The notes beneath the pieces are model-generated. The model worked only from the letters and a program-made list of their open reading frames with translations. It ran no database searches and was not told the DNA's origin. Shown here piece by piece: positions 10,313 through 59,425 of a stretch of 64,000 nt of DNA. Position 1 is the stretch's first letter. Each line of letters opens with the position of its first letter. The position numbers and the translations under genes were made by a program. This DNA is from Anoxybacter fermentans (GTDB lineage Bacteria > Bacillota > Halanaerobiia > DY22613), in contig NZ_CP016379.1 of assembly GCF_003991135.1 (NCBI RefSeq), forward strand, positions 1,736,001 through 1,800,000. The letters run 5' to 3'.

Positions 10313-10315
10313 AAT

Positions 10316-38782: not shown

Positions 38783-38891
38783 AAATAATTTAGTATTTTT
38801 TCTTCCCATCTTTGTAATATGTGTTTGACAAGATAAAACTCCTACATTTAACCATATTTGATGATGTCAAGAATTTTGTGTAAATGAATTT

Positions 38892-39505
38892 TCAAGAACC
38901 ATAACGCTCTTTGAAAAGTTGTTGTAATTGTTCTTTAGCACTTAAAAATCCTTTCATTTTTCTGTTACTCCATTTGGCATTATAGTCAATAACTTTCAAA
39001 TAAATAATCTTCTCAGCTGCTGTCTCAGTTGGTAAGCTGTTAACTGGATTTAACCTTTTACGAAGCTCTTTAATAGCTCTTTCTATCCAGTTGGTAGTAT
39101 AGATTGCCTTACGAATCGCAGATGGATACTTATATTAGAAGTTCGTTTTGTTCATTCCACCAACTTTGAGTAATTTTAGGATAAATTTGTTCCCATTTAT
39201 TACAAAATTCCTCTAATGCCTTTCTGGCATATTCCATATCAGGAGCATTATAAATGGTTTTTAAATCTTCTGTTATCTCGTTTATATGCTTTTTACGTAC
39301 TTTAGTTATAGTGTTTCTAACCTTATGCACAATACACCGTTGTACGTCAGCTTTAGGATAAACTTTGAGAAATGCATCCCTTAATCCGGGAAGACCATCC
39401 ATGACACCCAATAAAACTTCTTCCAGCCCCCTGGACTTTAAGTTTAACAAAACTTTTTCCCAGAGAGCAGAAGATTCTGAAGCTCCTATTCTATTCTGAA
39501 AACCA
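38892..39505 (-). pseudogene. IS256-family transposase, C-terminal half
   Basis: Reads GASESSALWEKVLLNLKSRG, VMDGLPGLRDAFLKVYPKADVQRCIVHKVRNT, then after a frameshift near 39135 YKYPSAIRKAIYTTNWIERAIKELRKRLN and finally KERYGS. These are the second and third DDE blocks of the mutator family. The N-terminal half lies at 42826-43400. Confidence 0.85.
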
Positions 39506-39585
39506 ATTTTAAAGAAAAAAGACCCTCTTAAGTTCCGTTATTTCTTTCAAAACAGAACACAGAGTCTATGTTTGAATGTAAATTT

Positions 39586-40818: not shown

Positions 40819-41269
40819 CTTTCGAAAGAAAATTAAAGAAAAGGAATGAAGTTAAAGCGACAACTTATTTTATAGAAAAACAATCTATTTTGCGTGCTTT
40901 CCTGGAAAAGGAAACAACAATCAGTGATACATGAAAGTTGTCGGGGTCCGTCTATAAGTCGGACTCACAGTACCAGTTAGCTTCGACCTCTACATCTAAC
41001 TTCAATATTATATTTATTATATAACAATTGTTGGGCAAAGTATAGTTTTCATAGTTCAAAGCTTTTTGCGTTGTGCGTCTTTTTTTATTAAAAAACAAAA
41101 AATTACTCTATTAATTTTCTTAATAAAAATTGGTAATTTTCTTTATTGTTACCTAATAACCAGTCATTGTATATTATTACAAAAAGAAAGTTCTAATTTT
41201 GGGTATACCTACCCCTTATAATTCGAGAAGTCTTTTTTAAAATCTAAACTAAATCCTTAATTTGTATCA

Positions 41270-42577: not shown

Positions 42578-42782
42578 AGGGTGATTCCTCCTTTCGTGTG
42601 ATTTTCTTGGCTAATTACTATTATATCACAAAATCACGGAGGTTCACCCTACTTTTTTTATTCTGGGGGCAATTTTTAATATCTTTACGATTTACCCTAA
42701 TAAAACCGGTATTTTAATATGTTTTTTGGGGTAAAGAAGTTTCCATTAACTCTATTTTTGTTGATATATCAAGACTTATTTA

Positions 42783-43400
42783 CTACGCAAAATACTCGTT
42801 CAGATGGTGATGCAAAGCATCATGAGGGTCTATATAGAAATCAAGAATCTCTCTATAACCTTCTTCATCGATGCCAATGATCACATATACAGATTCATTG
42901 TCAACATACTCACGACGCAACTTTACACTCATACCATCAGTGTATAGAACGTTATAACGTCTTTTGAATTTACGTTGATGCCATTTATTCAGTTCTTCTA
43001 AAGCAACATCTGTTAAATTGCTGACAGAGGATGCGCTATATTTGGTACCGTACATTTTTTCAATAGTTTCAGCAATATCTCTGGTACTGAGACCTTTGGC
43101 ATACATGTTGATGATCATTTTTTCTAACCAATTATCACAACGCTGATAAGGCTCAAAAAGAACAGTTTTAAATTCACCATTTCGATCCCGTGGCACCTTT
43201 AAATCCTGAATATTACCATATTTAGTTTTAAAGCTGCGAGTATAATAACCATTGCGACTATTACCTGAGTTTTTACCTTTAGGGTCATATTTTTCATAAT
43301 TTAAAAACTCAGTCAGTTCAGCCTTGAGGAGTTTTTGAATAAATTCTTTAATCAAATCAGTTAATAAACTATCTAAATTGCCAATAACTTTTGAAGTATA
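42783..43400 (-). pseudogene. IS256-family transposase, N-terminal half
   Basis: Reads SLLTDLIKEFIQKLLKAEL, KNSGNSRNGYYTRSFKTKYGNIQDLKVPRDRNGEF, CDNWLEKMIINMYAKGLSTRDIAETIEKMYG and VLYTDGMSVKLRREYVDNESVYVIIGIDEEGYREILDFYI, which is the mutator N-terminal region and first Asp block. After DFYI it runs into foreign sequence and stops. Confidence 0.88.
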
Positions 43401-43536
43401 CTATTCATAAGTGGAATCCTCCTTTAAGTTGAGATTTTTGTTTGGCAAACAATTACTTTAACCTTTCAAAGAGGATTACCTTTTTTATTTATGTAAGATC
43501 TCACAAAGTAATTTACACAAAATATTATACACTACT

Positions 43537-43671
43537 TCATTTGAAAAATATTAGTTTAAATATAACAAAGTAAGCTAAAATAAAAACTAATGCTAAAATA
43601 GTAAGAAATAGATCTTTTTTTATAATAGAGTAAATTATAAGAAATACTATTAATATTATCCATATATCCAT
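43537..43671 (-). CDS. 44-residue hydrophobic membrane peptide
   Basis: From ATG 43671 (GGGGTG six bases before it) the frame reads MDIWIILIVFLIIYSIIKKD, then a second hydrophobic run LFLTILALVFILAYFVIFKLIFF ending in K. Two membrane spans, N-terminal acidic residue, central KKD turn. Translation signals are good, but no family is recognised. It could be a small regulatory peptide, a toxin of a lost pair, or a fragment. Confidence 0.4.
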   Translation of the reverse strand: MDIWIILIVFLIIYSIIKKDLFLTILALVFILAYFVIFKLIFFK

Positions 43672-43739
43672 AAAATATCACCCCGCAATAAAATTAATAA
43701 ACTCAGGTATTTGTAAAATACATAAAAATTCTTAATATC

Positions 43740-44200
43740 TTTACCATTAGTTTATTAACTACAGTATTATCACTTAAGAAAGTTTTTGGATTAAAGAAAG
43801 TTCCTGATCAGTCCCAGTTCACCAGGATTAAGAAAAAATTTACTGATCAATTAGAACTTTTCTTTCATAATCTTGTAGATATTACTGAACTCATTTGCAA
43901 AAAACTTGATAAAGATTTAGCTTCTAGTCTTATCTTTTATACCTCTGGTATGTGAAGCTTATAACACCAAAAATAACCTTAAATATCTTAACTCTCACAT
44001 TAAAAGAGTTAAGCACCAATATGAAGATAAACCTGATGTAGATTCATATAAAATGATTTATAGGCTTATGCCTTCTTCAGCTTCTGTTAATAATACCTTG
44101 AATCTGCTACCACAACCCCGATTTAAAATTCTTCTAATAGCAGTATTAGGAGAAACAGTCCTCACCGGTGATGAATCAAAATCTGTCAATTGATGTGAAA
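43740..44200 (+). pseudogene. Decayed transposase (IS1182/ISNCY-like) N-terminal part
   Basis: Plus-strand reading gives LSLKKVFGLKKVPDQSQFTRIKKKFTDQLELFFHNLVDITELICKKLDKDL, then SSLIFYTSG and, after a frameshift, NTKNNLKYLNSHIKRVKHQYEDKPDVDSYKMIYRLMPSSASVN. DTSGIEAYxxENNPKY is a known transposase word, here corrupted. Several stops, no catalytic core. Confidence 0.55.
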
Positions 44201-44426
44201 CTACAATCTCCAAATTAATCCCCACCAAACACTATTAATTATATACAAAAGTTTATAGAACATAACAAGAAAAAACCACCAATAATTGATCGGTGGTTAT
44301 TAATTATATTACCGTGAAAATATTGCTGTCTTGTACCCGAGTTCGACAGCTCATAGGTAAAAAAATATCTAATGAAAGCCGTTATTACAACATCCATAAA
44401 GGTTTGACTCCTTTTTAAAGCTGTAC

Positions 44427-45480
44427 CTATGATTTTGGCTCAATTTTTGGATACCCTGAAGGCTTCTTGATTCCCATCATTTCAAGGATCTTAAGCTGTT
44501 CCTTGGTTAATTCCGTACATTGATATACCTCTCCAGAATTAAAAATAAATTTTCCTATTTTGATCTTATCTAATTCATAGCGAAGATTTCTCCAGGTCAT
44601 CTTTGTAGCATTTTCTGCAACCCTAACTAATAATAAAGCTAACCATGATAGTAATACATGGGCTCTGATTCTTTCTTCTAATCGATGATATACCGGCCTT
44701 ATCTCTAAGTCATTTTTTAGTTTCCTAAATGAGTCTTCTATCTCTACAAGCTGTTTATACCCTAAAGCTACATCTTCAGCTGAAAGGGTATCATCTGATG
44801 TGGTAATTAGATATTTGCCGTCATATTTTTCTTCTTCCCTGACTTTCATTCTGTTAAGCTTTAAGCGACCGCCTTTCAATTGCCTGATATACTTGCCATA
44901 AGTAGGATGAGACCTCAAGTTACACATAGCTTTAGTATGTGCTTTACCGGATAATTGTCTTAAAGACTTTAACTGGCTTTCTATTTCTTTGATAATCTGT
45001 TCTCTTTGTTCTTTCTGCCTTTTGGCTTCTAAAGGATTATAGGCTAAAACATAACGCTTTCTTGCTTCACCATCACCAACTATGATTTCTTTTATCTCAA
45101 GGTTATCTTTAATCTTTTGATAACGTCCTGAACGGGCCAGGGCTTCTTTTACTTCTTTCTTGCTGGAGCGAAGTTTTTCTCCCATTATGTAATGGCCGCC
45201 TGCTCTCTGTAAATAGCGTTTATTTTCACCTGAAGCAAACCCACAGTCCATAACTGAGATGACTCGACCTAATTTCCAGCCTATCAGGTCATCTTTAACT
45301 TCCTGAATAACAGACATATCAGAATTATTACCAGGCCAGACCCAGCTTTTAATTGGAATACCATCTCTAGTAACAGCTAAACCTACAACCATCTTGACTA
45401 AATCAGGCCTTTTATCCTTTTCGGGTACCTCACCTGGTTGAACTTCAAAATAACTGGAGGTGGTATCAAAGTTGATATAT
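44427..45480 (-). pseudogene. IS1634-like transposase, 5'-truncated
   Basis: The open frame 44427-45392 (MVVGLAVTRDGIPIKSWVWPGNNSD...) extends upstream without an ATG to INFDTTSSYFEVQPGEVPEKDKRPDLVK at about 45480, where it is cut. The catalytic domain is visible: VMDCGFASGENKRYLQRAG, LITTSDDTLSAEDVALGYKQLVEIEDSFRKLKNDLEIRPVYHR (the Glu block) and the RIRAHVLLSWLALLLVRV tail. The N-terminal third is missing, so it is not mobile by itself. Confidence 0.85.
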
Positions 45481-45745: not shown

Positions 45746-47083
45746 TTACTTTTCTATATATTTTTTTAATAAATCCCAATGTGTCTTGTTTTGTTTACAG
45801 ATAGTCAATTGAACTACCAATTCTTCGACTATCATTCGATTATACATGCAAATTTGTGAATTTAATTGTGTTAAATCGAGAACTCCATCACGAAGTAAAT
45901 AAATCATACAATACGTACATACATTATATATCCAACATGTACGACAGTCCTTAAAAAACGTTGTTTTGCGCAATGAAGCCAAATATTTCTGTTTTTGAGC
46001 CAATTTTTTTGCAAAATCATGCGGTGAATCATCCACGTGTGCAATTTTCATATTCTCCTGACATGCAAGACCATTGCAGGGGTAAATATTCCCAGAAGAA
46101 TTGACGGCTAACTTGCTAAATCCTGCCAGACAAAAGAGTTTATGACTTTCCTGGTTCAATAATCGACGTAAATACAAGTTCATTGCAACAGTCAAAAACG
46201 GTTCCTGGCCCGCTCTCAACTTTTTAAACTCCCTTTTAATCAATTCTACAAATGATTGCCAATCTTCATATACCAGAGGATACTTAGTACAATCTACGGC
46301 AACCGGGCTAATATGCACCTGAGTCTGTAATTTTAAATTGTTACGAAAATCATCAATAATATCAAAAACTTTTACTCCTTTTTTTACATGATTTATATTA
46401 TAAGTAACTTCAATACAGTTTAGCATTCCAGTCGTCTCTTGTATTTTTGCGATATTATTTATTACTCTATGATAGGTCCCCTTACCTGCCAAATCTACTC
46501 TAGACAAATCATGAATTTCTTTATTTCCATCTAAACTTACACTTACCACAATTTTATACTTTTTAATCAATTCAATAATTGAATCATTTAGAATAGTTCC
46601 ATTAGTATTTAAACCAAATCGGGGCATCATACCAGACATGTTTTTCACTTTTTCTGTCACATATTCACATACTAATCGAATGATTTTTGTATTCAGTAAA
46701 GGTTCTCCACCAAAAAATTGAATATTATGAACTTTATCAAAATGTTGAAAAACCAAATCTATGGCCTTAATTGCAATTTCTTCACTCATCAAATCAGCTG
46801 ACTCTCCATATGTCCCATGTTTATTATAACAATAACTACAGCGTAGGTTACAATCATTAGCAACATTAAGTAAAAGAATATTTAAATTTTTACCATCCTG
46901 GAATAATTCTATTTCTGTAAGTGGTGAATTATCAATAATTGGTTCCTGTTTTTGAATTACTGCTTTAATTTTATCTTTAGTTTCCTCAGATATTTGATAA
47001 AATTTTAAATTCTTTTTTAAAAAAAGTATATTTAAGTCATTTCTTTCTATAATATGAACTTCACTGGGATCAAAATATGGCAT
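45746..47083 (-). CDS. Radical SAM/SPASM peptide-modifying enzyme (island, third unit)
   Basis: About 445 residues from ATG 47083 (MPYFDPSEV), picked because AAGGGGGT lies 7 bases before it; the longer frame overlaps the preceding gene. Residues 1-60 are a small winged or PqqD-like N-terminal part. The core Cx3Cx2C is C78, C82, C85 (NDCNLRCSYCYN), with FFGGEPLLN, LNTNGTI and VVSVSLDGNKEIHD following. The C-terminal SPASM cysteines are visible: KLFCLAGFSKLAVNSSGNIYPCNG, then DCRTCWIYNVCTYC and QICMYN. Such enzymes install thioether or C-C crosslinks in ribosomal peptides. Its partner is probably the 86-residue protein just upstream (19 bases). Confidence 0.88.
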   Translation of the reverse strand: MPYFDPSEVHIIERNDLNILFLKKNLKFYQISEETKDKIKAVIQKQEPIIDNSPLTEIELFQDGKNLNILLLNVANDCNLRCSYCYNKHGTYGESADLMSEEIAIKAIDLVFQHFDKVHNIQFFGGEPLLNTKIIRLVCEYVTEKVKNMSGMMPRFGLNTNGTILNDSIIELIKKYKIVVSVSLDGNKEIHDLSRVDLAGKGTYHRVINNIAKIQETTGMLNCIEVTYNINHVKKGVKVFDIIDDFRNNLKLQTQVHISPVAVDCTKYPLVYEDWQSFVELIKREFKKLRAGQEPFLTVAMNLYLRRLLNQESHKLFCLAGFSKLAVNSSGNIYPCNGLACQENMKIAHVDDSPHDFAKKLAQKQKYLASLRKTTFFKDCRTCWIYNVCTYCMIYLLRDGVLDLTQLNSQICMYNRMIVEELVVQLTICKQNKTHWDLLKKYIEK

Positions 47084-47102
47084 AAATAACCCCCTTATTT
47101 TC

Positions 47103-47363
47103 TTATTCATCATCATAGATACTATATATTACTTCTGGATTATTACAAAAGGCAAATCCTGTTATTTCTACTTTTTCATTATCTTTAAAAAATACTATAT
47201 ATTTCAACATTTCATGAATTGTATTTTTAAATAATTCTTCAAAAGGTTTCCCTTGTAAAGTATCAATTTCTTCTGTTTCAATTCTAAAACGAAAAATAAA
47301 ATCACCATTTTCGTCCAAATTATTAATTTTATTATCAACCTGTTTAACTCCGTGCCGTTCCAT
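47103..47363 (-). CDS. 86-residue protein paired with the SPASM radical SAM enzyme
   Basis: ATG 47363 with GGAGG upstream. The sequence starts MERHGVKQVDNKINNLDENG and ends with an aromatic, acidic tail VITGFAFCNN-type run then SIYDDE. No signal peptide, no Cys cluster (one Cys only), not a clear PqqD. The gene is 19 bases ahead of the radical SAM gene. It may be a precursor whose aromatic C-terminus is modified, or a chaperone-like recognition partner. No family recognised. Confidence 0.55.
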   Translation of the reverse strand: MERHGVKQVDNKINNLDENGDFIFRFRIETEEIDTLQGKPFEELFKNTIHEMLKYIVFFKDNEKVEITGFAFCNNPEVIYSIYDDE

Positions 47364-47540
47364 AGCAAAACCTCCATAATTTTTAAAATTATATTAAATT
47401 TGAATTAACCCTTTGAGTGTACTTTGTCTTAGCCAACTCTACCTCTATTATCCTTCAACAACTCCACAACAACCAGAAAACTATAAATTATAGAACAAAA
47501 TGCCCTTCGGTACTTTACTGAGGTCTTTAACTTATTTTAA

Positions 47541-47690
47541 TGCGAAAAGCTAATTTTCAGCAACATAGAAATTTTTCGTTTAACTATCTTAGTAAAATTG
47601 AAGTTAGGCCTCATCACAGGAGGTAATGAACTAATCAAGTCTTTGAAATTGAACTTTATTTTTTTGAGCGAAAAATTAGCTTTTTGCAGT
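47541..47690. repeat. Palindromic MITE-like element, copy 10 (degenerate)
   Basis: Left end TGCGAAAAGCTAATTTT and right end GCTTTTTGCAGT, internal deletion and divergence. It separates the second and third transcription units of the island. Confidence 0.78.
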
Positions 47691-47757
47691 TTATCATATA
47701 TTATCTATATCAAATGTTATCTACAACCTGCAAAAAGTATAATTTCTTGGACATCAA

Positions 47758-47802
47758 AAAAGTTACTTAGATCAAGTTGTAAACCAACTTGATCTAAGTA
47801 AT
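47758..47802 (-). terminator. Strong terminator after the 39-residue peptide gene
   Basis: TTACTTAGATCAAGTT(G) and (C)AACTTGATCTAAGTAA form a 17-bp perfect stem with a 4-base loop; CTTTTTTG follows on the minus strand. It lies about 30 bases after the peptide stop. Confidence 0.92.
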
Positions 47803-47831
47803 CTACAAAAATTTTTATCCAAAGATTTTTA

Positions 47832-47951
47832 CTAATCAGTAGTTATAGTTCCAATAAATGGCGCTCCCGAAAACTTTCTTTGTACTGTTACTTTTTCTTC
47901 ATCATTGATCAAATTACGTAATTCAGCTTCACTTAAATAAAGTTTCTTCAT
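47832..47951 (-). CDS. 39-residue candidate RiPP precursor
   Basis: ATG 47951 follows GAAAGGAGGTGCAATCT, a very strong ribosome site. The product begins MKKLYLSEAELRNLINDEEK, a charged leader-like helix with L-S-E-A-E-L, then VTVQRKFSGAPFIGTITTD, a small-residue, Thr- and Phe-rich C-terminus. No Cys. It is 50 bases behind the radical SAM-PDZ gene and directly before a perfect terminator. Short length, leader-like start, strong translation and position support a precursor, but no database family is recalled. A small regulatory protein is the alternative. Confidence 0.65.
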   Translation of the reverse strand: MKKLYLSEAELRNLINDEEKVTVQRKFSGAPFIGTITTD

Positions 47952-48001
47952 AGATTGCACCTCCTTTCTCAGATTGTTTATGAAAGATTTTTTGAAATTA
48001 G

Positions 48002-49696
48002 TTAAACATAAATTGTTTCACATTCAATAATTTCTATAGGTATTCTAAATTTACTTAATTCATAAACACTCGAACCACAAAGATCCATTCGCCATTCATC
48101 AAAAACAGATGATGGAATAACAATTAAATCTATCTGTTGATTTTGTAACATTTTTTCCAACTGTATTTTAAAATCAGATACCATATGTAAGTCATTAATT
48201 ATAATATTCCCCCCCCAATAGTAGTGAGGACAGATCATATAAATAAGATTGCATTTAGCAAAAAACTGAGTGTAAAAATCTACACTATTAATAATTTGTT
48301 GAACAAAAGGAGCTATTATTTCAGAAGTAAAAAGAATTATATTTTTTGCCGAATGTTTTTCAATAGCTCTTTTTAATTTATCTATGTAACTAATTTTAAT
48401 AGTCTGGTTCAAAAACAATCCCCAGGTAAATGGTGAATATATATTTTTTACATTTTCTTTCTTTTTAAGTACCACATCAAATTGCTTATTTTCTCTCTGA
48501 ATTGTTAAAGTGACCTTTTCTGCTCCATTTTCATATGCCTGTCTAAGTTTAGAAATAAGCTGTGACTTTAAATATATTGGGTTTTCATCCATAGCAACAA
48601 CTAGATCATTAACTTTAAGACCGGATTCATAAGCTGGAGAATACTTATAAACTCCATCAATTATTGGCTCTATAGTAGTAGAAGCTCCATATAAAGCAGG
48701 TAAGCAGGTAAGTGGAAAAGAAACTTTTGGCTTTAATTTCGCCACTAAATCAACCAAATCATCCCATCTGTCATACATTAAATTAGTACACCCGGGATTG
48801 TTATATTTATTGTACCCAGGCAAACATACTCTAACCAGTACAGGCTCATATTGCTCTAATTCCAAAATTGTTCTTTCTATATTTGCCAAATCCACTGAAA
48901 CCCAACCTACAATACTTACAGAATAGGAAACTTGATACTTTTTAAGTAATGAAAGGCTCTTTAGCGCATTCTTTGTACCATCCTTTTTAGAATCATTCAT
49001 AGTTCTTTGCCTTGTCGTTGGATCCAGACTATTAATAGAAACGACCAGACTAACTTTTTTGTATTTTGATAATTCCTTGATAATTTCTTCGGTAAGAAAT
49101 GACGCATTGGTAGTCAAATAATCTATATCTTCATTTAAATCCTTTACCATTGAGAAAATTTCTAAAAGATTTGGATTTAGAAATGGTTCACCATAAACAA
49201 AAATTGCTGAAGGAAGTCCGGTCTTTTTTTTCTGATCATAATACTTTAGTCTGGTTTTAGCTTCCTCAAGACTTAAAATCCGATTCTTTTGAGCATAAGG
49301 CAAAGGATTTTTTTTCTCATAACAAATTTCACAATCACAATTACAATAACTAGATGGAGATCCTAAATTAGAAAAAAAACTTTCTACTTCATAAAAAGAC
49401 CATTTAGAAAGATTTTTTAAACGATACCCATTAACTACCTGTTCAACACCTTTATATTTAAAAGTTATAAAAGGAAGATATTGTTTTAAAAAATGATCAA
49501 TAAATCTTAAACGGGGCTCTGATAAATTATAAACTCCGTAATAAAAATGCTTTCTGTCATCATTTTTAATCACATTGGTTTTAGGAGTTAACTTTATCTC
49601 AACTTCATCAATTCTCACCTTCTTACCATTATATTCAAAATCAAAAAGTTTGAATATCTCCTTTAGTACAGTTGCAATAAAATTTTCAAAAATCAT
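48002..49696 (-). CDS. Radical SAM protein with embedded PDZ domain (island, second unit)
   Basis: About 564 residues from ATG 49696 (GGGGTG upstream; a GTG lies 9 bases earlier). Residues 1-115 are an unrecognised N-terminal domain. The cluster motif is CNCDCEIC, giving Cx3Cx2C at C118, C122, C125 plus one extra Cys at 120. FVYGEPFLNPN and LTTNASFLT follow, with VVSINSLDPTTRQ. A PDZ domain spans about 345-412 (PAYESGLKVNDLVVAMDENPI). The last 130 residues (NIILFTSEIIAPFVQQII, then LCGSSVYELSKF.IPIEII) weakly recall the DUF512 domain of PDZ-radical SAM proteins, though there PDZ is N-terminal. Likely acts on the 39-residue peptide downstream. Confidence 0.8.
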   Translation of the reverse strand: MIFENFIATVLKEIFKLFDFEYNGKKVRIDEVEIKLTPKTNVIKNDDRKHFYYGVYNLSEPRLRFIDHFLKQYLPFITFKYKGVEQVVNGYRLKNLSKWSFYEVESFFSNLGSPSSYCNCDCEICYEKKNPLPYAQKNRILSLEEAKTRLKYYDQKKKTGLPSAIFVYGEPFLNPNLLEIFSMVKDLNEDIDYLTTNASFLTEEIIKELSKYKKVSLVVSINSLDPTTRQRTMNDSKKDGTKNALKSLSLLKKYQVSYSVSIVGWVSVDLANIERTILELEQYEPVLVRVCLPGYNKYNNPGCTNLMYDRWDDLVDLVAKLKPKVSFPLTCLPALYGASTTIEPIIDGVYKYSPAYESGLKVNDLVVAMDENPIYLKSQLISKLRQAYENGAEKVTLTIQRENKQFDVVLKKKENVKNIYSPFTWGLFLNQTIKISYIDKLKRAIEKHSAKNIILFTSEIIAPFVQQIINSVDFYTQFFAKCNLIYMICPHYYWGGNIIINDLHMVSDFKIQLEKMLQNQQIDLIVIPSSVFDEWRMDLCGSSVYELSKFRIPIEIIECETIYV

Positions 49697-49705
49697 TTTT
49701 TTCAC

Positions 49706-50119
49706 CCCGTTTTCTAATTATTTAACAAATATTGTTTATTATATATTCATAGATCAAATTCAACCATAGTGCAACTAATGTTTTTCCAATTTAGGTTATA
49801 TTTTGGTATTTTTTATATTTTATTTATATAATTAATTTTTGATTATTTTTTTATAATTATATCATTTTAAACGTGCAATTTCAAGTAAAACAAACTAATA
49901 TTTCCATTTCAACTAATCAATTAATCTTTATACTCATTATATTAAGTGTCTAAAAATTCAATTATGAAATCGTTTTGAAACGTCTATATATTACAAATCT
50001 TTATATATAATATTAAAAAAATAAAGAGCTTATCCCTACGGTCTTTTATACACACTTATCCTTCATAATTTAATTATTAATCAGAATTTTCTTACAAATA
50101 AAGTTTACTTTTTTCGATT
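49706..50119. other. AT-rich intergenic region with a candidate promoter
   Basis: No gene in about 410 bases. On the minus strand TTGCAC, 17 bases, TATGAA with TATAAT nearby (roughly 49745-49785) could drive the radical SAM-PDZ unit. This is a weak match in very AT-rich DNA. Confidence 0.35.
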
Positions 50120-51468
50120 TTAGTAATTTGTTATATTAATATTGTTTACTCTGATAGTAGGAGAACCAAAACCCTTATCACTTCTCCCTACTAAGAAAAA
50201 TTCCAAATCATTTCCTATTAAATCAATTTGTTTAAAATAATCCAAGATTTTTCCCCAAAAAACAATCCGTGGTACAAAACCTTTAAATTGCCCATTTTTA
50301 ATATATAAAGCAGTTGCACTTACAGAGTAAGACCCTGAACTCTGATATATTGGATCTGTATTGAAAAGCTTTACAATATATAACCCTTCTTCAACTGACT
50401 CAATTATATCTTTTTGAGAAAGATTTTGCGGTTTAATATATAAATTAGTAGGGGTAACTTTAGGCAATTTACTAAAATCTACTTTAAATCCATTTCCTGT
50501 CGATTTTGATTCTAATTTATATGCAGAAAATACATTATGTAAAGCATTTTTAAATATACCTTTTTCTATTACTATAGTTTTTTGGGATGAAAATCCTTCA
50601 TCATCAAAAGGAATAGAAGCTAACCCCCTGTGAAGCATCCCATCATCAATTATAGTTAGTTTATTAGATCCAATTTTTTCCTTAAATCGATCTTTTAAAA
50701 TAGACATACCTTCACTAATCCTATCACCAAAAAAAATGGGACTAAACTTTTGGAGTATTTCTGCACTTAAATTAGGAGGTAAAATTAATGACATTTTTTT
50801 ATCCTTTAATTTGACCTCAGGGAGATTAAAATCTGTTAACATCTGCAATTGGTTTCTCAAATATTCTCTGTAATTTAAATCTTCAATATAAACTTTACTT
50901 ATTCTCCAATTTAAAGAATTTGTGTTAAGCTTTAAAACCCCCCCATATCAATTATACTCTTCTGATAAGAACCCACAAATTGATATATATCAAAAATTTG
51001 GATAGACTTTATTTTATCAACATATACTAATTGTGGAAAATTGACTAAATTATTTTGGGTTTTTACCCAATCAATTAAATCATACATATAAGAAATTTTA
51101 TCATTCAAAGACAAATCTTCTATTCCAGAGTCATAAATCTCGGGTAAAAAATCAATCTTATCAAATCGATTTTTTTCAAAACAAGAAATATCAACTGATA
51201 GATTTAAAAGTTCAGAATTAAAAATAGCTTTTCTTACTAAGTGATTAACATTTTCAAATTCAAAATTAAAAGAAAAACTATAACCTAATTTACCTTTATT
51301 TACCACTGTAATAAATATTCCACAGTTATTAGGAATTTGGATAAAATTAAGTTTATTTTTTTTAAACTGTAAATATGTTCCTCTTTCCTCCATAACATAT
51401 ATTTGTGCATAATCTAAAGGAAACTCTTTAAGACTTGCAAGTACTTTCTTCATTTTATCTACATTCAT
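50120..51468 (-). pseudogene. Island TldE-like subunit with a frameshift in a G7 run
   Basis: The N-terminal half (51468 to about 50940) starts MNVDKMKKVLASLKEFPLDYAQIYV; the C-terminal half (to 50120) includes MLHRGLASIPFDDEGFSSQKTIVI, STGNGFKVDFSKLPKVTPTN and DLIGNDLEFFLVGRSDKGFGSPT, all PmbA/TldE-like, with no HExxxH. Between them, at 50938-50944, the minus strand has seven G. With eight G the frame would run straight through (GGVLKLNTNSLNWRISKVY), giving about 450 residues, the family length. So this is a one-base indel: sequencing error, recent mutation or phase switching. Confidence 0.85.
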
Positions 51469-51469
51469 C

Positions 51470-52846
51470 CTATTTCCAACCACCTACTTTTATTTTACTA
51501 ATCCGTAAAGTTGGAATTCCTGCACTAACCAATACCCTATCAAATTTGTTACATATTCCATACGTAAAATTCAAATCATTGCCCACCATATCAATCTTTT
51601 GTAAAATATCTTTAGAATTACCTACTATAACCATGTTTTTTAATGGAACAAATATCTTGCCATCTACAATCAAAAAAGCTTCTATAACTTCAAAAGAGAA
51701 ATCACCAGTCATCCCATTCACATTACCAGTTCCTAATGCACTAATATAAATACCTTCTTTAACAGATTGTATGATTTCTTCCGGAGATATATCCGGGTTT
51801 GGTTGAAGATAAGTATTTGTCATTCGAGGGGTAGGCAAATATTGAAAATTCTCTCTTCTACCATTCCCTGTGAGACTCATATCCAAATTTTTTGCCGTTT
51901 GACGACATGTTAAATATTTCTGTAAAATACCTTTTTTTATTAAAACATTCTTTCTAGTTTTTGTACCTTCATCATCATAATTACTTGATATTATACTTCC
52001 TTCCAATGTACCATCATCAATTATAGTAACTAAATCTGAAGCAACTTTTTCTCCTAATTTATTATGAAAAACCTTATATCCCATCTGTATTAAATCAGCT
52101 TCCAAGGCATGTCCACAGGCCTCGTGTATTAAAACTCCTCCTTCACCACCAATTACCACTGGCATTTCTACCTGTGGACATGTAACCCCCTTAATAACAT
52201 AAGTTAGCCTGTTTACAACTGCTAATGCTAAATTCTTTAAAACTCTTTCATTATTTAAATTTGTAAAATTTTTAAATGCTCTACGAACTTTGGTCTTATA
52301 ATTTCTTCCTTGATTTGAACTTGTTGCCTCGACGATTATAAAAATACCATTCCGTTGGTCTCTTATTACTTTATCCTCACAGTTTACTATTTTTATATTT
52401 TTTTCTTTTTCTTCAAATTTTATAATCAAAGATATTGAACCCATTTGATAATAATCTCTAATTAACTTATCTAATTTCTTTAAGCAATCTATTCTTTTTT
52501 TTAATGATATAAAATCAAAATCCTGTTCTAAATGGTCCTGTTGGTTAATAGAACCAAAATCAGCTGCTATAGGTTCACTATGGAAAGATCCTACTAATGC
52601 TATATCATAAGCAATTTTTCGTAAATGATCCTTTTCAAATTTGTTAGTAAATGCATAATGAGTTATCCCATTTTTTATTAACCGATATCCTATTCCATTA
52701 ACTACTCTATCTTCTACATGAACTAAATTACCATTATTTAAATGTAGAACTTTTACGTTCGTATTTTCAATGAATAAATCCGCGTACTCCCCACCTTGAG
52801 ATGTCATTACATATATTAGCCCTTTAGAATCCTCATTCGATAGCAT
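51470..52846 (-). CDS. Island TldD-family metallopeptidase
   Basis: 458 residues. Zinc motif HEACGH at 241-246 in GGEGGVLIHEACGHALEADL, followed by TIIDDGTLEGSIISSNYDDEGT and MTNTYLQPN, as in TldD. It diverges strongly from the chromosomal TldD at 10-11.7 kb, including at the N-terminus, so it is a paralogue dedicated to this locus. Its stop is one base from the TldE-like start, and the MFS gene ends 15 bases before it. It probably removes the leader or degrades the tail of the modified peptide. Confidence 0.92.
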   Translation of the reverse strand: MLSNEDSKGLIYVMTSQGGEYADLFIENTNVKVLHLNNGNLVHVEDRVVNGIGYRLIKNGITHYAFTNKFEKDHLRKIAYDIALVGSFHSEPIAADFGSINQQDHLEQDFDFISLKKRIDCLKKLDKLIRDYYQMGSISLIIKFEEKEKNIKIVNCEDKVIRDQRNGIFIIVEATSSNQGRNYKTKVRRAFKNFTNLNNERVLKNLALAVVNRLTYVIKGVTCPQVEMPVVIGGEGGVLIHEACGHALEADLIQMGYKVFHNKLGEKVASDLVTIIDDGTLEGSIISSNYDDEGTKTRKNVLIKKGILQKYLTCRQTAKNLDMSLTGNGRRENFQYLPTPRMTNTYLQPNPDISPEEIIQSVKEGIYISALGTGNVNGMTGDFSFEVIEAFLIVDGKIFVPLKNMVIVGNSKDILQKIDMVGNDLNFTYGICNKFDRVLVSAGIPTLRISKIKVGGWK

Positions 52847-52861
52847 AATACCACCTAATTC

Positions 52862-54115
52862 CTATTTAGTAGCTTCAGTTAAATTTATGGATTCTTCCTT
52901 AGGCCAGAAATTTATCAGAACAATCGACACTCCAATAATTATTAATGCACCAACTTTTAAAATCCATAACACACCAAATAAATCAATTAACCATCCTATT
53001 AAACTTGCACCTAAAGGCCCACCTATCAACATAAAAAAGTTTAATACTGATGCAGCTCTTCCACGATATTCATCCTCAATATTTTCCGCAAACAATAACC
53101 CAATACCTACACTAGCCAATCCAATTGCCAGTGACATAACAAATATACCAATTGAAAGGGCATAAAAATTTACTATTATCCCTCCTAAACCGAAACCCAG
53201 GCCTATACAAATAATTCCATAAATCAATATTTGTTTCTTGGAAAGAAATTGACTAACTTTTGGATAAATAATATTACCTATCAAATTCCCTATTAGAATC
53301 ATAGACAATGCAATACCTATATGCGATTCACTAATTTTATATATATTTGTAACTGAATAAAGTACAATAACCTCCATAGGTGTTAAAATCATATTAATAC
53401 ATGCTGCTACAACCATAATAAGAATAAAGATTGTTTTTGTTTTTAAATATGCAAGTCCACGAGTAAAATCTTTTAAAATTCCTCTTTTTTGTTTTGTTTC
53501 TAATTCTACAAGCTTTTCCTGTGGTATAGTCATCATAAGAATTGCAAATCCAGAGACAAAAAATGTAATTGCATCAAATAAAAATATCCCGTAAAAATCT
53601 ATCAATACTAACATTACTCCTACAAGAGACATTCCGAGAATTTGAACCAAACTTTGTGTCCCATTCACCAGTGAATAACCAAAAATTCTATCTTCTTCTT
53701 TCAAAAGATTTGGTAAAGTTGCTGTATTAGCAGTTGTAAAAAAGGTTTCAAAAATTGAAACCAGAAAAGCCATTACATATAGTTGAAAAATTGTTAAAAT
53801 ATCAAAAAACAATGCAATAGATACCCATAACATAATACATCCACGTGCAAATTCAGCTATAATCATTATCGTTTTTCGTGAATATCGATCAACTAATACA
53901 CCTGCTATAGGAGTAAAAAGCAAATTAGGAAGCATGTTAATAACCATTATAGTTCCCATCGCTAGTGCAGAACCAGTTAATTCTAAAACTATGTATATTA
54001 ATGCAATGGTTTCTAAAGCATCAGCAAATCTGGATAATGCTTGAGAACTCCATAATAATGTGAATGACTTGTTTCTTCTTAAAAATTCCATCCTTTCAAC
54101 TATCTTTTTCTTCAT
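52862..54115 (-). CDS. MFS exporter (EntS/MFS_3-like) of the peptide island
   Basis: About 417 residues from ATG 54115 (AGGTGG upstream). Twelve hydrophobic segments are evident. The N-terminal FTLLWSSQALSRFADAL, the inter-helix motif GVLVDRYSRKTIMI (MFS motif A) and AENIEDEYRGRAASVLNFFMLIGGPLGA fit the MFS_3 drug or siderophore exporter group. Encoded between CPBP and tldD, it most likely exports the finished peptide product and may confer self-protection. Confidence 0.88.
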   Translation of the reverse strand: MKKKIVERMEFLRRNKSFTLLWSSQALSRFADALETIALIYIVLELTGSALAMGTIMVINMLPNLLFTPIAGVLVDRYSRKTIMIIAEFARGCIMLWVSIALFFDILTIFQLYVMAFLVSIFETFFTTANTATLPNLLKEEDRIFGYSLVNGTQSLVQILGMSLVGVMLVLIDFYGIFLFDAITFFVSGFAILMMTIPQEKLVELETKQKRGILKDFTRGLAYLKTKTIFILIMVVAACINMILTPMEVIVLYSVTNIYKISESHIGIALSMILIGNLIGNIIYPKVSQFLSKKQILIYGIICIGLGFGLGGIIVNFYALSIGIFVMSLAIGLASVGIGLLFAENIEDEYRGRAASVLNFFMLIGGPLGASLIGWLIDLFGVLWILKVGALIIIGVSIVLINFWPKEESINLTEATK

Positions 54116-54216
54116 TTTTACCACACCACCTAAAATAAATGTTATTCATTTAAATTATAATATATTTAGTTAAAAAATACAATATAAATTATTCAATAGC
54201 AGGCTGGTTATCGTAT

Positions 54217-54855
54217 CTAATGTGAGATTTTAATTTTGTATTGCCCAGGTAGGCAAATAAAATTATAAGCTGAATGTATACAAATGGAAGAAAAAACACC
54301 GTGTTCTAAAATAATAATCCCAAGTATAGCTCCAAAAAATGTCATTAATACTACATGAACTAGACTAGAATTTTTGTGATGGATTCCAAATAAAATTGAA
54401 GTAAAAATTACATAAACTATACTGAAAACCAGGTTATTTAATACGTTAAAATTCATTAAAATTACTACAAACAAATAAGGTAAAATACGAAATCTAATTT
54501 CTTCTTCAATACTGGCAAACCATAGTGCCATTAATGTAAGTAAAAGATCATCATTTCTAGAATGATATATTACATCATTTTGTTTAAATATTAATATAGT
54601 AAAATACATCAACATTAATGAAATTAATGTGTTAATATAAATATTGCCATTAGAGATAAATTGTAATATTGATGCTAGATAGATAACTATAAATAAAACA
54701 GCTATATGAAATAACGATAGCTTAGTGGCTTTATAATTTATAATTTTTATATTGCCATTCTTTAGCAGATGATTATTTTGTTTAAATATTTTTCTAATAT
54801 AATAAAATGGTGTGCAAAATCCGATAAAAGATATTATCAATAAAATCTTGTTCAT
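54217..54855 (-). CDS. CPBP/Abi family intramembrane metalloprotease
   Basis: 212 residues with about six to seven membrane segments. Motif 1 EEEIRFR (about 103-109, the EExxxR pair), motif 2 FGIHHKNS and motif 3 CIHSAYNF give the CPBP zinc site. Its ATG overlaps the stop of the B12-radical SAM gene (ATGA). In bacteriocin and RiPP clusters CPBP proteins process leader peptides or serve as immunity proteins; either role fits. Confidence 0.85.
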   Translation of the reverse strand: MNKILLIISFIGFCTPFYYIRKIFKQNNHLLKNGNIKIINYKATKLSLFHIAVLFIVIYLASILQFISNGNIYINTLISLMLMYFTILIFKQNDVIYHSRNDDLLLTLMALWFASIEEEIRFRILPYLFVVILMNFNVLNNLVFSIVYVIFTSILFGIHHKNSSLVHVVLMTFFGAILGIIILEHGVFSSICIHSAYNFICLPGQYKIKISH

Positions 54856-56417
54856 CTATACACCTCTTTTAATTCTTTAAATTTTTTAAAATTCATTCCT
54901 AATGTGGTTTTATCAAACTCTTCCATATGTTTTTCGATTTCCTGCATAATTTGTTTTTCAGTTAATTTAGTAACATTATAAAGAACATATTCAAATATAT
55001 TTAATTCCAATTCTCTTACATTTTCTAACCATTTTTCTAAACGTACTACATATGGATTTTGTTTCTCATAATTAGCTCTTAACTCTTTTTGCATGTAATT
55101 TCTTTTCTTATTTAAAATTTCAATCCACTTATAATGGATATGTCGAAACTTTTCCATTCTTGGATCTTTCATTTTATAATCATAAATCGCATCTAATTTT
55201 TCTAATATCTTATATTGATGAGATGTCATTTTCGGAAAGTTCCAAGGAATAACTTCCAATTCATCGATACGTTCAGCTAATTTTGTTCCTCCAATAATAC
55301 CTAAATGGTTAGAATATAATAAATGGGATGTATCAGTCAAAGTATAAATTTTCTCCTCTTTGATAAAGCGTAAGTTTTCATACATTTCCTCTAATGTAGT
55401 CCAGGGATCAAATAATATAAAATTAACGTGTGTTTTAATTCCCATATCTGTTAACATCTTTATCGCCTTCAAATTTTGTTCAACGGTTGTTCTTTTGTTC
55501 CAGGTATCCAACATTCGTTGAACACCTGTCTCCACACCTAAACGAACATTATATAAACCTGCACCTTTTAAAGCTCTTATAATCGGCATTTTTATATCAG
55601 TAACTCTAGCTTCAATGGAAAAATAAATATCTAAATTTTTTTGCATAAGTAAATCTGCAATTTCCAATGCCCTTTTTTCACCTTTCGGACAACTGCCAAA
55701 AAAGTTATCATCAGCAAAAAGAAAATATTTTTTACCATACTCTTTATTATATCTTTCGATTTCGTAAACTACCCTTTCTGGACTTTTTGCTTTCCAACGC
55801 GGCTGTTTAGCAAGCTTTGTAAAACCATGAATAGTACAATAACTACAATTAAATGGGCAACCTCTGGATGTAACAATTGTTGCAATTGGCCCATCAAGCC
55901 TGGGTTCTATAAATGGCTCCTTATCTAAATCAACTATTTCTCCTGTAGGTTCATTCTTTATTATTTTATCAGAAGAGTTAAAATAAAAAGAAGCAGTCCT
56001 TAGTAATTTTTCATTATCATTTAAATTTGACATAAACTCTACTATAGAATTTGTAGCCTCACCAATAGCTATAGAATCAATCTCCTTAAAATTTTTTAAA
56101 ACTTTTTCTGCATTTAATGTAGCAGCTGACCCTCCAATTGTTATATGGCCTGAATAACCCTGACTTTTTAATCTCTGAGCTAAATCTATTGCTACTACTA
56201 ATTCTTTTACAAAAGGAGCAGTAATTCCAATCCAATCATATTTTTTAAGTTTTTCTACACAAGAATCAATAGGTTCATAATTATTACAAAAATCATATAA
56301 ATCAACATTATATCCCTTCTCACTTAATACCGCATGAATTAACCCCGCTCCCAGATATTCATTTGTATCCATCATTGTCGGAGATACCGGCGGAACTACA
56401 ATTGCTAACTTCATCAT
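54852..56417 (-). CDS. B12-binding radical SAM enzyme of the peptide island
   Basis: 521 residues. An N-terminal cobalamin-binding-like Rossmann domain (about 1-140: IVVPPVSP, VDLYDF, IGITAPFVKELVVAIDLA, HITIGGSAATLN) is followed by the radical SAM core with C187, C191, C194 (TSRGCPFNCSYCTIHGF) and FLFADDNFFG, RLGVETGVQRML. The last 150 residues are helical and charged, without SPASM cysteines. The canonical B12 DxHxxG loop is not clear, so cobalamin binding is likely but unproven. Enzymes of this class methylate unactivated carbon or perform ring formation on RiPPs. Confidence 0.87.
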   Translation of the reverse strand: MMKLAIVVPPVSPTMMDTNEYLGAGLIHAVLSEKGYNVDLYDFCNNYEPIDSCVEKLKKYDWIGITAPFVKELVVAIDLAQRLKSQGYSGHITIGGSAATLNAEKVLKNFKEIDSIAIGEATNSIVEFMSNLNDNEKLLRTASFYFNSSDKIIKNEPTGEIVDLDKEPFIEPRLDGPIATIVTSRGCPFNCSYCTIHGFTKLAKQPRWKAKSPERVVYEIERYNKEYGKKYFLFADDNFFGSCPKGEKRALEIADLLMQKNLDIYFSIEARVTDIKMPIIRALKGAGLYNVRLGVETGVQRMLDTWNKRTTVEQNLKAIKMLTDMGIKTHVNFILFDPWTTLEEMYENLRFIKEEKIYTLTDTSHLLYSNHLGIIGGTKLAERIDELEVIPWNFPKMTSHQYKILEKLDAIYDYKMKDPRMEKFRHIHYKWIEILNKKRNYMQKELRANYEKQNPYVVRLEKWLENVRELELNIFEYVLYNVTKLTEKQIMQEIEKHMEEFDKTTLGMNFKKFKELKEVYR

Positions 56418-56537
56418 TACACCCTCCTCTAAATCATGAAATTTTGTATCCTACCCAATAAGATGGCCCTAATCTACTAACTATTTCTATTTTCCCAGAA
56501 ACTTCACGTCTTATTTGATGCTACCATTAGTAAAAAA

Positions 56538-57905
56538 TTATATCATTCTTCTCTCAATTAGATCTTCTAAATACTCATTTATAGTTTCTTTATATCCTTC
56601 ACATGAAGGCTGATAAATATCGTTATTTGCTACCCATGAAGCTAATGCACACCCTCCACCACAGAATAATTCAATCTCACAATTTCGACATTTTTCCATA
56701 TTAATAGTTTTCCTATTTCTCCATTTTAAATATTTCTCAAAATCAATTTGTAAACCATCAGTAAAAGTACCAATAGCCAATTCATCAATTCCAACACTTT
56801 GATCACACGGATAAATTTTACCATCTGGGCAAAATGCAAAATATCTTCCATCTGTAGAATCACAATAGTTAAATAATGGAGGAACATTCATATCTAATTT
56901 TCCAGACTCGAGGACTGTACTAATATGAGCCAATAACTTTATATCCCGTACCATATATGTGGTTTTTGCAGAATTATCATACTTAAATATTTCATTTACT
57001 TCTTTTAAAAATTTATTTTCTGATACCTTATGTTTGAAAGTTTTAGGACACATAACTCTGCTAAATATTGACATAAAGTTAATATTATTTTTCCAACCCA
57101 TATCTTTAATAAAATCATATACTGTCCTTAAATCTAAATTTTCTTCATCTACATTTACTCGTAATACCACTTTAAAGTTTTTTGATAATAAAAGCTCTAC
57201 ATTTTCTACTATTTCTTTAAATGTACCTTTTCCATTTTTGAATGGTCTTCGATAATCATGTACTTCTTCTATACCATCCAGAGATATTTGTATTTGAAAT
57301 AGTTGATCACGATATTTTTCAAATAAATCAATATACTTTTTTATAGTAGTTCCATTAGTTAATATCTCTATTTTTTTATCTATTTGTTTCATCTTTTCAA
57401 AAATGTACTCCACTAAATATTTATTTTCAGGCATTAATGGCTCTCCGCCATATAAATAAAAAACATTTTCACTACTTTCCACATATTTGGGAGAATTAGA
57501 TATTTCATTAATTGCCTCAAAAACTTTATCTATCATTTCTGTTGACATTTTTAAATCGCTTTTTTTATCTATAACATCTTCTTCATAACAATAAGTACAC
57601 TTTAAATTACAAGAATATGTAGGACAAATAGCAAATATTTTCGGCTGTTTTTGGCTTGCAAATTTTTCATAAATGTCCCTATATAATTTTTTGTAAGCCT
57701 CTTCACTTGGGAAGATATATCCTCTATCTTCCAGTTTTTTTAATAACGTAGAATCCAATTGAGAAAGTTTTTCCTCATCACACTCTCTTAATACTTTTAC
57801 AAGTTCTTCTTCCATAATATCAATCATACCTGTAGTTGAGTTAATTACTAAATAATTCCCATCAAAACTTTTCTTATATATAATTTTTTTCGGAACAAAC
57901 ATCAT
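56538..57905 (-). CDS. Radical SAM/SPASM peptide maturase (island, first unit)
   Basis: 455 residues. Residues 1-85 form a PqqD-like/RRE-like N-terminal domain (YLVINSTTGMIDIMEEELVKVL, LEDRGYIFPSEEA), suited to holding a leader peptide. The core has C99, C103, C106 (YSCNLKCTYCYEED), LYGGEPLMP, ILTNGTTI and QISLDGIEEVHD. The SPASM region carries CDSTDGRYFAFCPDGKIYPCD and EKCRNCEIELFCGGGCALA, plus a final Cys in PSCEGY. It sits 64 bases behind the 34-residue Cys-Cys peptide, which is its likely substrate, so thioether formation is the leading idea. AAGGAGGGG precedes the ATG pair. Confidence 0.92.
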   Translation of the reverse strand: MMFVPKKIIYKKSFDGNYLVINSTTGMIDIMEEELVKVLRECDEEKLSQLDSTLLKKLEDRGYIFPSEEAYKKLYRDIYEKFASQKQPKIFAICPTYSCNLKCTYCYEEDVIDKKSDLKMSTEMIDKVFEAINEISNSPKYVESSENVFYLYGGEPLMPENKYLVEYIFEKMKQIDKKIEILTNGTTIKKYIDLFEKYRDQLFQIQISLDGIEEVHDYRRPFKNGKGTFKEIVENVELLLSKNFKVVLRVNVDEENLDLRTVYDFIKDMGWKNNINFMSIFSRVMCPKTFKHKVSENKFLKEVNEIFKYDNSAKTTYMVRDIKLLAHISTVLESGKLDMNVPPLFNYCDSTDGRYFAFCPDGKIYPCDQSVGIDELAIGTFTDGLQIDFEKYLKWRNRKTINMEKCRNCEIELFCGGGCALASWVANNDIYQPSCEGYKETINEYLEDLIERRMI

Positions 57906-57925
57906 TTCACCCCTCCTTAAAATTG

Positions 57926-57959
57926 CATAGAGATAGGTTTAAAAAAACCTATCTCTATG
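57926..57959. promoter_or_regulatory. Perfect 15-bp stem-loop between precursor and maturase genes
   Basis: CATAGAGATAGGTTT and its exact complement with a 4-base T loop on the transcript. No long T run follows, so it more likely acts as a partial terminator or RNA-stabilising hairpin that makes precursor mRNA exceed enzyme mRNA. Confidence 0.75.
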
Positions 57960-57969
57960 ACTTTTTAAT

Positions 57970-58074
57970 TTACTCTTCCTCATCATTATTCATTGCAATA
58001 GTGATTACTGGCTTGATACAACATGCTGCTCTCAGGTTTTTCTCCATTTTCCAACCTTTGTTCAAGGAAATCAT
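57970..58074 (-). CDS. 34-residue Cys-Cys RiPP precursor candidate
   Basis: ATG 58074 follows AATGAAAGGAGGTGAAAAAT, an ideal ribosome site. The peptide begins MISLNKGWKMEKNLRAA, a basic leader-like stretch, has adjacent Cys at 18-19 and continues IKPVITIAM with an acidic tail NNDEEE. The two Cys and nearby Ile, Val, Thr residues are candidate sites for thioether crosslinks. It is the first gene of the island's main operon, 64 bases upstream of a SPASM maturase, with a stem-loop between. Too short for routine gene callers. Not matched to a named precursor family from memory. Confidence 0.8.
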   Translation of the reverse strand: MISLNKGWKMEKNLRAACCIKPVITIAMNNDEEE

Positions 58075-58091: not shown

Positions 58092-58810
58092 ATTGGCAGA
58101 GTTCCGTCAAATTTCCCCCTTTTTCAAGGGGGAAAAGCTTGATTTTTCCCTGTAGAGTCGGGATTTTCCTGAAAAAGAAGGAATCCCTCCCCCTGGAGTA
58201 GTAGGTAGTAGTCTTCTTCATTTCTTTTCAGTTCTCTCATAATATTTCCGTATTGATTCTAAATCACCTAACTAAATTGATGACTACCACTCTAAATTAA
58301 ACAACCTGGATGATCCATTACCTCTCGTAAAACCTGTTTATAAAGATTAGCCATTACGTAACTTTTATCTATAAAGCTATTGATTTCTACATCAGATTAA
58401 GTCTCTCTTTACAACAAACTGTACAGGCTATCAAATTAACATGGCAAGTTTCTCTCTCGAAAAAGATCATTCAAAAATGGACAGTTTTATTAGTTGTTAA
58501 ATTATACCTTTGAATCCAAAACTACCTTTATCCGGCATTGTTGCTATCGAAGAAACCTATATCAAAGTTAAAAGCTCAAAAACATAGTAGAACGTTTCTT
58601 TGGAACTTATAAATCACATTATAAACGACATGAAAGTTTCAGTTCTTTCGAAGGTGCTATCTCTCATGCAATACTTTATCAGTTGTATTTCAACTACTTA
58701 TTTAGCATTAAACCACCTTTGCAGATTACAGACTCCACCGGTCAAATAAATAATTGAAAACTGGACACAACTCATCAGATGGATCATTAAACAAGTCTCT
58801 AAGTTTCAAT
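58092..58810 (+). mobile_element. Decayed IS6/IS240-like element, copy 2
   Basis: The left end GGCAGAGTTCCGTCAAATTT and the block AAGAAGGAATCCCTCCCCCTGGAGTAGTAGGTAGTAGT match 33842-33960. The body (ATTTCCGTATTGATT, CTCTCGTAAAACCTGTTTATAAAGATT, SHAILYQLYFNYL words) matches copy 1 but with large internal deletions. Only fragments of the transposase remain. It ends where the precursor gene's upstream region begins. Confidence 0.75.
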
Positions 58811-59179
58811 AAACCTTACAAAAGCTAAACTACGAAGCAAAAAGGTAGAGTATGTAACAGGACGAAGCTTTTTAACCTTGGCAGATTCCTTAAATAATGT
58901 ACCAACCATGTAACCTTTAAGTTTATCTTAATAATTACATTCAAAATAGTTATATTTTGTTTGGTTCTTTAATTTTATTGTTATAATACCATATTTATTC
59001 ATATATTTCAAAATCGATTTTTTTTCATTAAATTGATCTATCTTATGTTATCTTGTTTTTAATCCTTTATTCTCTATTATTTAAATTTTTCTACCTTTAT
59101 TTCTTGGTTCTATACAATATTAGTTATGTTTAATAAATATGGATTTTATTTCCATCTCTAGATTAATAAATATTTTCCT
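58811..59179. other. Gene-free stretch, second half is the right direct-repeat copy
   Basis: No gene. From about 58974 it repeats 37190 onward. Confidence 0.6.
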
Positions 59180-59235
59180 CGCCGTCAAATGTTATGGGAG
59201 ATAAGTTGGCTCTGTTGATTTGATTGGTGAATTGA
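58974..59235 (+). repeat. Long direct repeat, right copy (partner 37190-37450)
   Basis: Same order of words as the left copy, with scattered substitutions and small gaps, leading into an ISL3 3' end remnant. Confidence 0.85.
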
Positions 59236-59425
59236 TTTTGGAATAAACATTTAAATTTAATAATTTAACATTGTATTAAATACTCTTCTCCTTAAATTCA
59301 TAACATTTAGAACATCATATTCAAGCCATTTAATCAATTTAATCCTGTTATTGATACCCTCAGCACAGCCATTAGTTATCTTAATTTTAAAATAATTTAA
59401 TATTTTTTCTTCCTATCTTTGTAAT
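59180..59425 (-). mobile_element. ISL3-family remnant, copy D
   Basis: Only the last 200-odd bases of the element (GCCGTCAAATGTTATG to TCTTCCTATCTTTGTA) survive, with substitutions. The following 59410-59465 (AATATGTGTTTGACAAGATAAAA) matches 38818-38865 beside ISL3 copy C, so the two loci share both flanks. Confidence 0.85.

Follow-up and report, generated by a model that had tools for sequence, protein, structure and literature searches.

The stretch of DNA analysed here (the window; 64,000 nucleotides, G000:C1:1736001-1800000) comes from Anoxybacter fermentans, whose genome is a single contig of 3.56 Mb. Positions 45746-58074 hold an island of genes for radical S-adenosylmethionine (SAM) enzymes, short candidate precursor peptides, peptidases and an exporter, which we interpret, with a probability of roughly 0.55, as two adjoining modules for ribosomally synthesized and post-translationally modified peptides (RiPPs). 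All the genes share the minus strand, with none on the opposite strand in between. A first-pass annotation had described this set (two SPASM enzymes, a B12 radical SAM enzyme, a radical SAM-PDZ protein, a CPBP protease, an MFS protein, TldD and peptides), and coordinates, motifs and Pfam and NCBIfam matches bear it out. In the order of transcription, the features are as follows.

57970-58074, minus strand: P1, candidate precursor peptide of 34 residues, MISLNKGWKMEKNLRAACCIKPVITIAMNNDEEE, with ribosome-binding site aaaggaggtg; CC peptides lie beside SPASM1 homologues
57926-57959, minus strand: hairpin separating P1 from SPASM1, resembling an attenuator or terminator (-21.7 kcal/mol, z -8.4)
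56538-57905, minus strand: SPASM1, radical SAM/SPASM peptide maturase of 455 residues (NCBIfam and solved-structure matches)
54852-56417, minus strand: B12-binding radical SAM enzyme of 521 residues, class 1, with an N-terminal B12 domain (Pfam B12-binding 1.6e-11, Radical_SAM 5e-22)
54217-54855, minus strand: CPBP (Rce1-like) membrane protease of 212 residues (PF02517 5.7e-8, over cut-off)
52862-54124, minus strand: MFS exporter of 420 residues (best Pfam match MFS_1, also MFS_3; both over cut-off)
51470-52846, minus strand: TldD, metallopeptidase of 458 residues with HEACGH (that is, HExxxH); solved TldD 5nj5 matched at 9.5e-59
50120-51483, minus strand: TldE, frameshifted, with domain 1 at 50932-51483 and the C-terminal domain at 50120-50860 (PF01523, PF19289)
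Between TldE and rSAM-PDZ: an AT-rich gap of ~415 bp
48002-49705, minus strand: rSAM-PDZ, with small N-terminal repeats, radical SAM, PDZ and a DUF512-type C-terminal domain (Pfam for radical SAM and PDZ; fold search with an AlphaFold model)
47832-47951, minus strand: P2, candidate precursor peptide of 39 residues, MKKLYLSEAELRNLINDEEKVTVQRKFSGAPFIGTITTD, with ribosome-binding site aaaggaggtg, between rSAM-PDZ and the terminator
47763-47801, minus strand: terminator hairpin 3' of P2, followed by CTTTTTTG (z -5.95)
47103-47363, minus strand: p86, putative small partner protein of rSAM-PDZ, 86 residues; its homologue p83 lies near the rSAM-PDZ relative at locus L068
45746-47116, minus strand: SPASM2, radical SAM/SPASM enzyme of 456 residues overlapping the end of p86 (best NCBIfam match PapB, 1.4e-58, under cut-off)

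The whole genome has 50 radical SAM domains over cut-off, and at two sites, the island and a sibling cluster (L151), at least four of them lie within 12.3 kb. When 50 domains were placed randomly in 3.56 Mb, at least four fell inside 12.3 kb somewhere in 3% of the trials (647/20000). The gene combination had been called unfamiliar, and a second copy of the complete island did not turn up. Even so, it is not the only one of its kind, as the sibling cluster of this genome likewise joins four radical SAM enzymes to TldD/TldE and, there, ABC exporters. A BAGEL4 screen reported eight radical-SAM 'sactipeptide' clusters for A. fermentans (PMC10931772). Promoter-like sites in the island region were no commoner than in shuffles, and PHROGs and Rfam scans gave no useful match.

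P1 has a CC motif and only these two, adjacent, cysteines. SPASM1 carries the radical SAM CxxxCxxC motif and SPASM-type cysteines, as judged from sequence and Pfam/NCBIfam. Its best NCBIfam matches were TIGR04463, CefB and PapB, all under cut-off; the curated equivalog cut-off was not reached (best 147 bits, 525 needed). The closest solved chain was 5wgg (5.8e-20), with 8vpo among the next matches; we take these to be CteB and PapB, respectively. SPASM1 homologues in other genomes (E < 1e-35) mostly adjoin a same-strand peptide of 30-49 residues with CC. Examples are MLEPLNIIWTDGEVEEENPCPCCGRLFYGI (L002/L017), MFEPVNKKPMIENGVESDGCYACCRVYVGITPY (L018) and MKMKSIVKTGWNLQKTERSQNSAQMGPMIGIGSEFCCAC (L112/L120), the last of which has a (K/T)GW...K stretch in common with P1; a further group reads ...CCSK..KV..GCHD. 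At L018, a CPBP gene adjoins both SPASM1-like and SPASM2-like genes. Because SPASM1 homologues repeatedly adjoin short CC-containing peptides, P1 is well supported as a credible precursor. These neighbours, together with the nearest structures, also make a thioether crosslink the most likely first step of SPASM1.

The B12 radical SAM enzyme was under cut-off for all NCBIfam models. Against the RiPP C-methyltransferase model TIGR03975 it scored 69 bits (cut-off 281.85), and a single-protein search of the genome contigs gave a distant Desulfonatronum match only. The CPBP translation has all three motifs (EExxxR, FxxxH and HxxxN), and the protein may serve in immunity or in peptide processing. 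The exporter matched TIGR00900 at 2.4e-65, yet under that model's cut-off; its earlier assignment to MFS_3 is right in so far as MFS_3 is over cut-off, although MFS_1 is the best Pfam family.

The TldD and TldE genes reported earlier are both present, but TldE is broken and the pair is not unique to the island, as the genome has eight pairs, a further one of them in the window. The island TldD is closer to the L151 TldD, with which it shares 48% identity over the catalytic domain, than to the other window TldD (10316-11677; 37%). An intact TldE partner is not present as one open frame; the break is a one-base frame change in a seven-G run near 50938, and the second frame has no stop within 50855-50938. 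The other window pair (8987-11677) is intact, and the radical SAM gene nearest to it is at 28196-29155.

Transposase genes lie just downstream of the island (42783-45392) and transposase remnants upstream, near 58300-59400. Along with the TldE frameshift and the visible decay of a related locus (L146), they would suit an explanation in which TldE was lost and the genes persist amid insertion sequences as remnants that give no product now. We consider this improbable. Apart from TldE, all island genes of at least 85 residues are intact, CxxxCxxC is kept in four of the four radical SAM enzymes, and the catalytic motifs of TldD and CPBP are both preserved. Moreover, a sequencing error or phase variation may account for the one-base change in the seven-G run, and there are seven other TldD/E pairs in the genome. 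Many insertion-sequence transposase genes of several families, including two nearly identical 400-residue copies, occur in the window at 11787-12989, 34176-35378 and 37470-45392.

Four of the eight TldD/E pairs (16 genes) are at most 4 kb from a radical SAM domain, a limit chosen after the distances had been seen; random placement reached four in 229/20000 trials. These four pairs sit in separate clusters, each with its own short peptides. In L151, a 30-residue peptide is accompanied by TldD, TldE, two ABC genes and four genes for radical SAM enzymes, one of which is a true RiPP C-methyltransferase that exceeds the TIGR03975 cut-off. Both there and in the island, the peptide comes first, several radical SAM genes and then the B12 enzyme follow, and TldD and TldE come after these; the precursor, the true TIGR03975 member, the ABC rather than MFS export and the lack of rSAM-PDZ set L151 apart. 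L154 combines a 40-residue Cys peptide, MNTPAYKGKKIAGCVGCAVVGLNPGLVSFPCIPWYVAAAV, with an SkfB/AlbA-like radical SAM gene, ABC genes and TldD/E, and L152-L153 have a similar set, spread out. With TldD/E recurring near radical-SAM peptide genes, it would be a common leader peptidase of radical-SAM RiPPs in this bacterium. Two other clusters were also seen: L019 (G001:C30) has several similar 30-residue peptides (MLDKLWNLDQYSYEIINPEEPPAKIYCCPV and variants), many radical SAM genes and two M16-like peptidase genes; L033 (G017:C6) has two B12 radical SAM genes, a SPASM gene, an M16-like peptidase and a 39-residue peptide ending in GSCACHCANRS.

The most unusual part of the island is rSAM-PDZ, whose DUF512-type nature the first-pass annotation had missed. 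Its AlphaFold model was built from an alignment of 17 relatives and has a predicted local distance difference test score (pLDDT) of 73, with residues 120-567 mostly good. A fold search with this model returned DUF512 proteins first (9cg2 at 2.5e-12, 9cg1 at 1e-10), and the Mmp10 structures 7qbu and 7qbs were among the next matches (about 2e-7). Invariant in the alignment are the three radical SAM cysteines and, in the C-terminal part, G499, I501, D511, P531 and D541. Because its C-terminal domain has, by fold search, the DUF512/Mmp10-type fold, rSAM-PDZ is probably a class 2 cobalamin radical-SAM methylase. The island, credited before with one B12-type enzyme (54852-56417, which is indeed present), would then have two of cobalamin type. 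Cobalamin is bound by DUF512 domains, and enzymes of this type use SAM to methylate it (PMC11659888, PMC13331322). About 6000 sequences of DUF512 radical SAM enzymes exist, and papers of 2024 and 2025 describe their substrates as an open question (PMC11659888, PMC13331322); RiPPs are not mentioned in PMC11659888.

The rSAM-PDZ family has two forms, one of ~450 residues (radical SAM, PDZ and DUF512, in this order) and an N-terminally extended one, to which the window protein belongs. The short form is common, being present in 66 of 300 genomes of the phylum, which is represented throughout by a sample of genomes. The ordinary paralogue of A. fermentans itself (L132, 4930-6279) lies between tsaD and groES, and in several other genomes the paralogue adjoins tsaD and/or groES. 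So common a family, with such non-RiPP neighbours, would fit the idea that rSAM-PDZ is a copy of the ordinary enzyme that acts on a protein substrate and came to lie here by chance. We judge this quite improbable, as the extended form stands apart and every locus known for it contains precursor-like peptides or peptide-modifying radical SAM genes.

The extended form is rare. A sample of ~400 phylum genomes yielded two good examples and one decayed, and a Sinorhizobium plasmid yielded one more. The 399-genome phylum search gave no further ones, and a search of viral contigs with the rSAM-PDZ alignment gave no match. At L068 (genome G168, whose order and class comprise 3 genomes only in the sample), the relative is 29-31% identical over its length. 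Upstream of it are a 79-residue peptide, p83 and an amidohydrolase-like gene, and downstream is an MFS exporter; the peptide matched the NHLP-clan model NF038399 at 2.7e-9 (37 bits, slightly under the 40-bit cut-off). The sole match among 72,556 plasmids was L133 (9021-17952), on Sinorhizobium sojae plasmid pSJ05684b, with an rSAM-PDZ of 732 residues and 24% identity (6e-44). An 80-residue open reading frame precedes it, a B12 radical SAM gene overlaps its end, and an aldo-keto reductase, a methyltransferase, a 2-oxoglutarate oxygenase and a second B12 radical SAM gene follow. This plasmid cluster carries no annotation in the collection. L146 (G308), which looks decayed, has a truncated rSAM-PDZ and a frameshifted PapB/SPASM2-like SPASM gene, together with a RiPP C-methyltransferase over the TIGR03975 cut-off.

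p83 of L068 is a homologue of p86 (3e-9). The N-terminal repeat of rSAM-PDZ is similar to p86 and p83 (P 1.2e-4 with the L068 protein, 0.006 with the window protein), so that p86 probably duplicates, as a separate protein, a unit that binds the substrate or a partner. A p86 profile found only its own two members as convincing matches in 300 phylum genomes, and the structure model of p86 is weak (pLDDT 65). A fused p86-like region in L133 is only suggestive (P 0.08). A similarly suggestive region in L146 (P 0.004) was not counted, since by eye that stretch appears to contain part of the neighbouring gene a second time. The idea of a splicease (PlpX) was dropped, as XYG is the splicease motif and the candidate peptides do not have it.

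We favour two modules over one by about 2:1, since a hairpin follows each of the two peptides, a gap separates the gene groups and their companions elsewhere are distinct. The first-pass annotation had proposed a multi-step modified peptide: there is good support for a radical-SAM pathway that has a protease and an exporter of its own, but not for a single peptide, as the companions split into two modules in other genomes. Its suggestion to look for genes travelling together likewise holds for the parts, SPASM1 recurring with its peptide and rSAM-PDZ with p86-type, SPASM or B12 radical SAM genes, rather than for the island as a whole.

From sequence, fold and gene neighbourhood, we infer the reactions, their order and the pairing of enzymes with peptides as follows. 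In module A, P1 would have its leader near the N-terminus and its core around AACC. SPASM1 would place a radical crosslink on P1, most likely a Cys thioether, and the B12 radical SAM enzyme would modify it further, by a C-methyl group or a C-C bond. TldD, joined by TldE should its frame be restored, would trim the N-terminus until the crosslink stops trimming; the MFS protein would export the product, and the CPBP protease may confer immunity or make a membrane-side cut. In module B, rSAM-PDZ, guided by its N-terminal repeats and p86, would methylate a short peptide (P2 here, the NHLP-leader peptide in L068) as a cobalamin methylase of the DUF512/Mmp10 type. SPASM2 may act on the same peptide or a neighbouring one.

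Several points weigh against the two-module interpretation. P2 has no detectable sequence relative, and a full copy of either module was not found elsewhere. The window rSAM-PDZ has no Pfam DUF512 match (elsewhere, the L068 relative reaches 6.8e-5, 22.7 bits with a cut-off of 25, and an ordinary paralogue 2.3e-12, 47 bits), and its fold model comes from an alignment mostly of paralogues. The TldE frameshift and the insertion sequences on both sides mean that the island may be partly decayed. Finally, rSAM-PDZ travels with B12 or SPASM enzymes, adjoining a B12 radical SAM gene in L133 and a PapB-like SPASM gene and a RiPP C-methyltransferase in L146, so that the modules could still be one pathway, in which P1 (or P1 and P2 as a two-component peptide) is worked on by all four radical SAM enzymes in turn, followed by TldD/E trimming and MFS export. 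The one shared strand and the presence of only one exporter and one TldD would agree with this. We nevertheless regard a single pathway as rather unlikely, because the gap and the terminator after P2 divide the island, and because the SPASM1/CC-peptide and rSAM-PDZ/p83 pairs are each found elsewhere without the other.

We tentatively suggest an undescribed RiPP type, whose signature would be an extended rSAM-PDZ-DUF512 (Mmp10-like) cobalamin enzyme with a dedicated p86 and short peptides. If so, natural substrates would for the first time be known for a radical SAM enzyme of the DUF512 type. With such an enzyme beside short candidate peptides, the substrate question is open to a direct co-expression test. 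Each part of the island belongs to a known kind; what appears to be new is a DUF512-type enzyme in the service of RiPPs.

Compared with the maturases of Cys-rich peptides and ranthipeptides (PapB, CefB, TIGR04463 and CteB), SPASM1 has the same domain plan and an adjacent short CC peptide with a strong ribosome-binding site; it differs in being under every curated cut-off, and the two adjacent cysteines of P1 leave the crosslink partner unpredicted. A B12 radical SAM enzyme followed by TldD-type cleavage has a precedent in the biphenomycin-like pbs cluster (PMC12257519), and the island has the former and, by prediction, the latter leader removal. The pbs cluster, however, acts on aromatic residues, for which it has an MNIO, an arginase and a hydroxylase, whereas P1 has no aromatic pair for coupling. 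Among NHLP-leader RiPPs (Os1348 clan, NF038399), a near-threshold precursor occurs only in the L068 relative of module B; P2 shows no NHLP-type leader, having no match to NHLP models. With the class 2 enzymes of the DUF512/Mmp10 group, rSAM-PDZ shares the radical SAM core, the PDZ domain and, by structure search, the fold of the C-terminal cobalamin domain. In csDUF512 the PDZ domain is N-terminal, before the radical SAM domain, whereas in rSAM-PDZ it comes after it. The added N-terminal repeats, the partner p86 and the peptide-cluster setting also distinguish rSAM-PDZ, and while Mmp10 methylates an Arg of a large protein, rSAM-PDZ sits among short candidate peptides.

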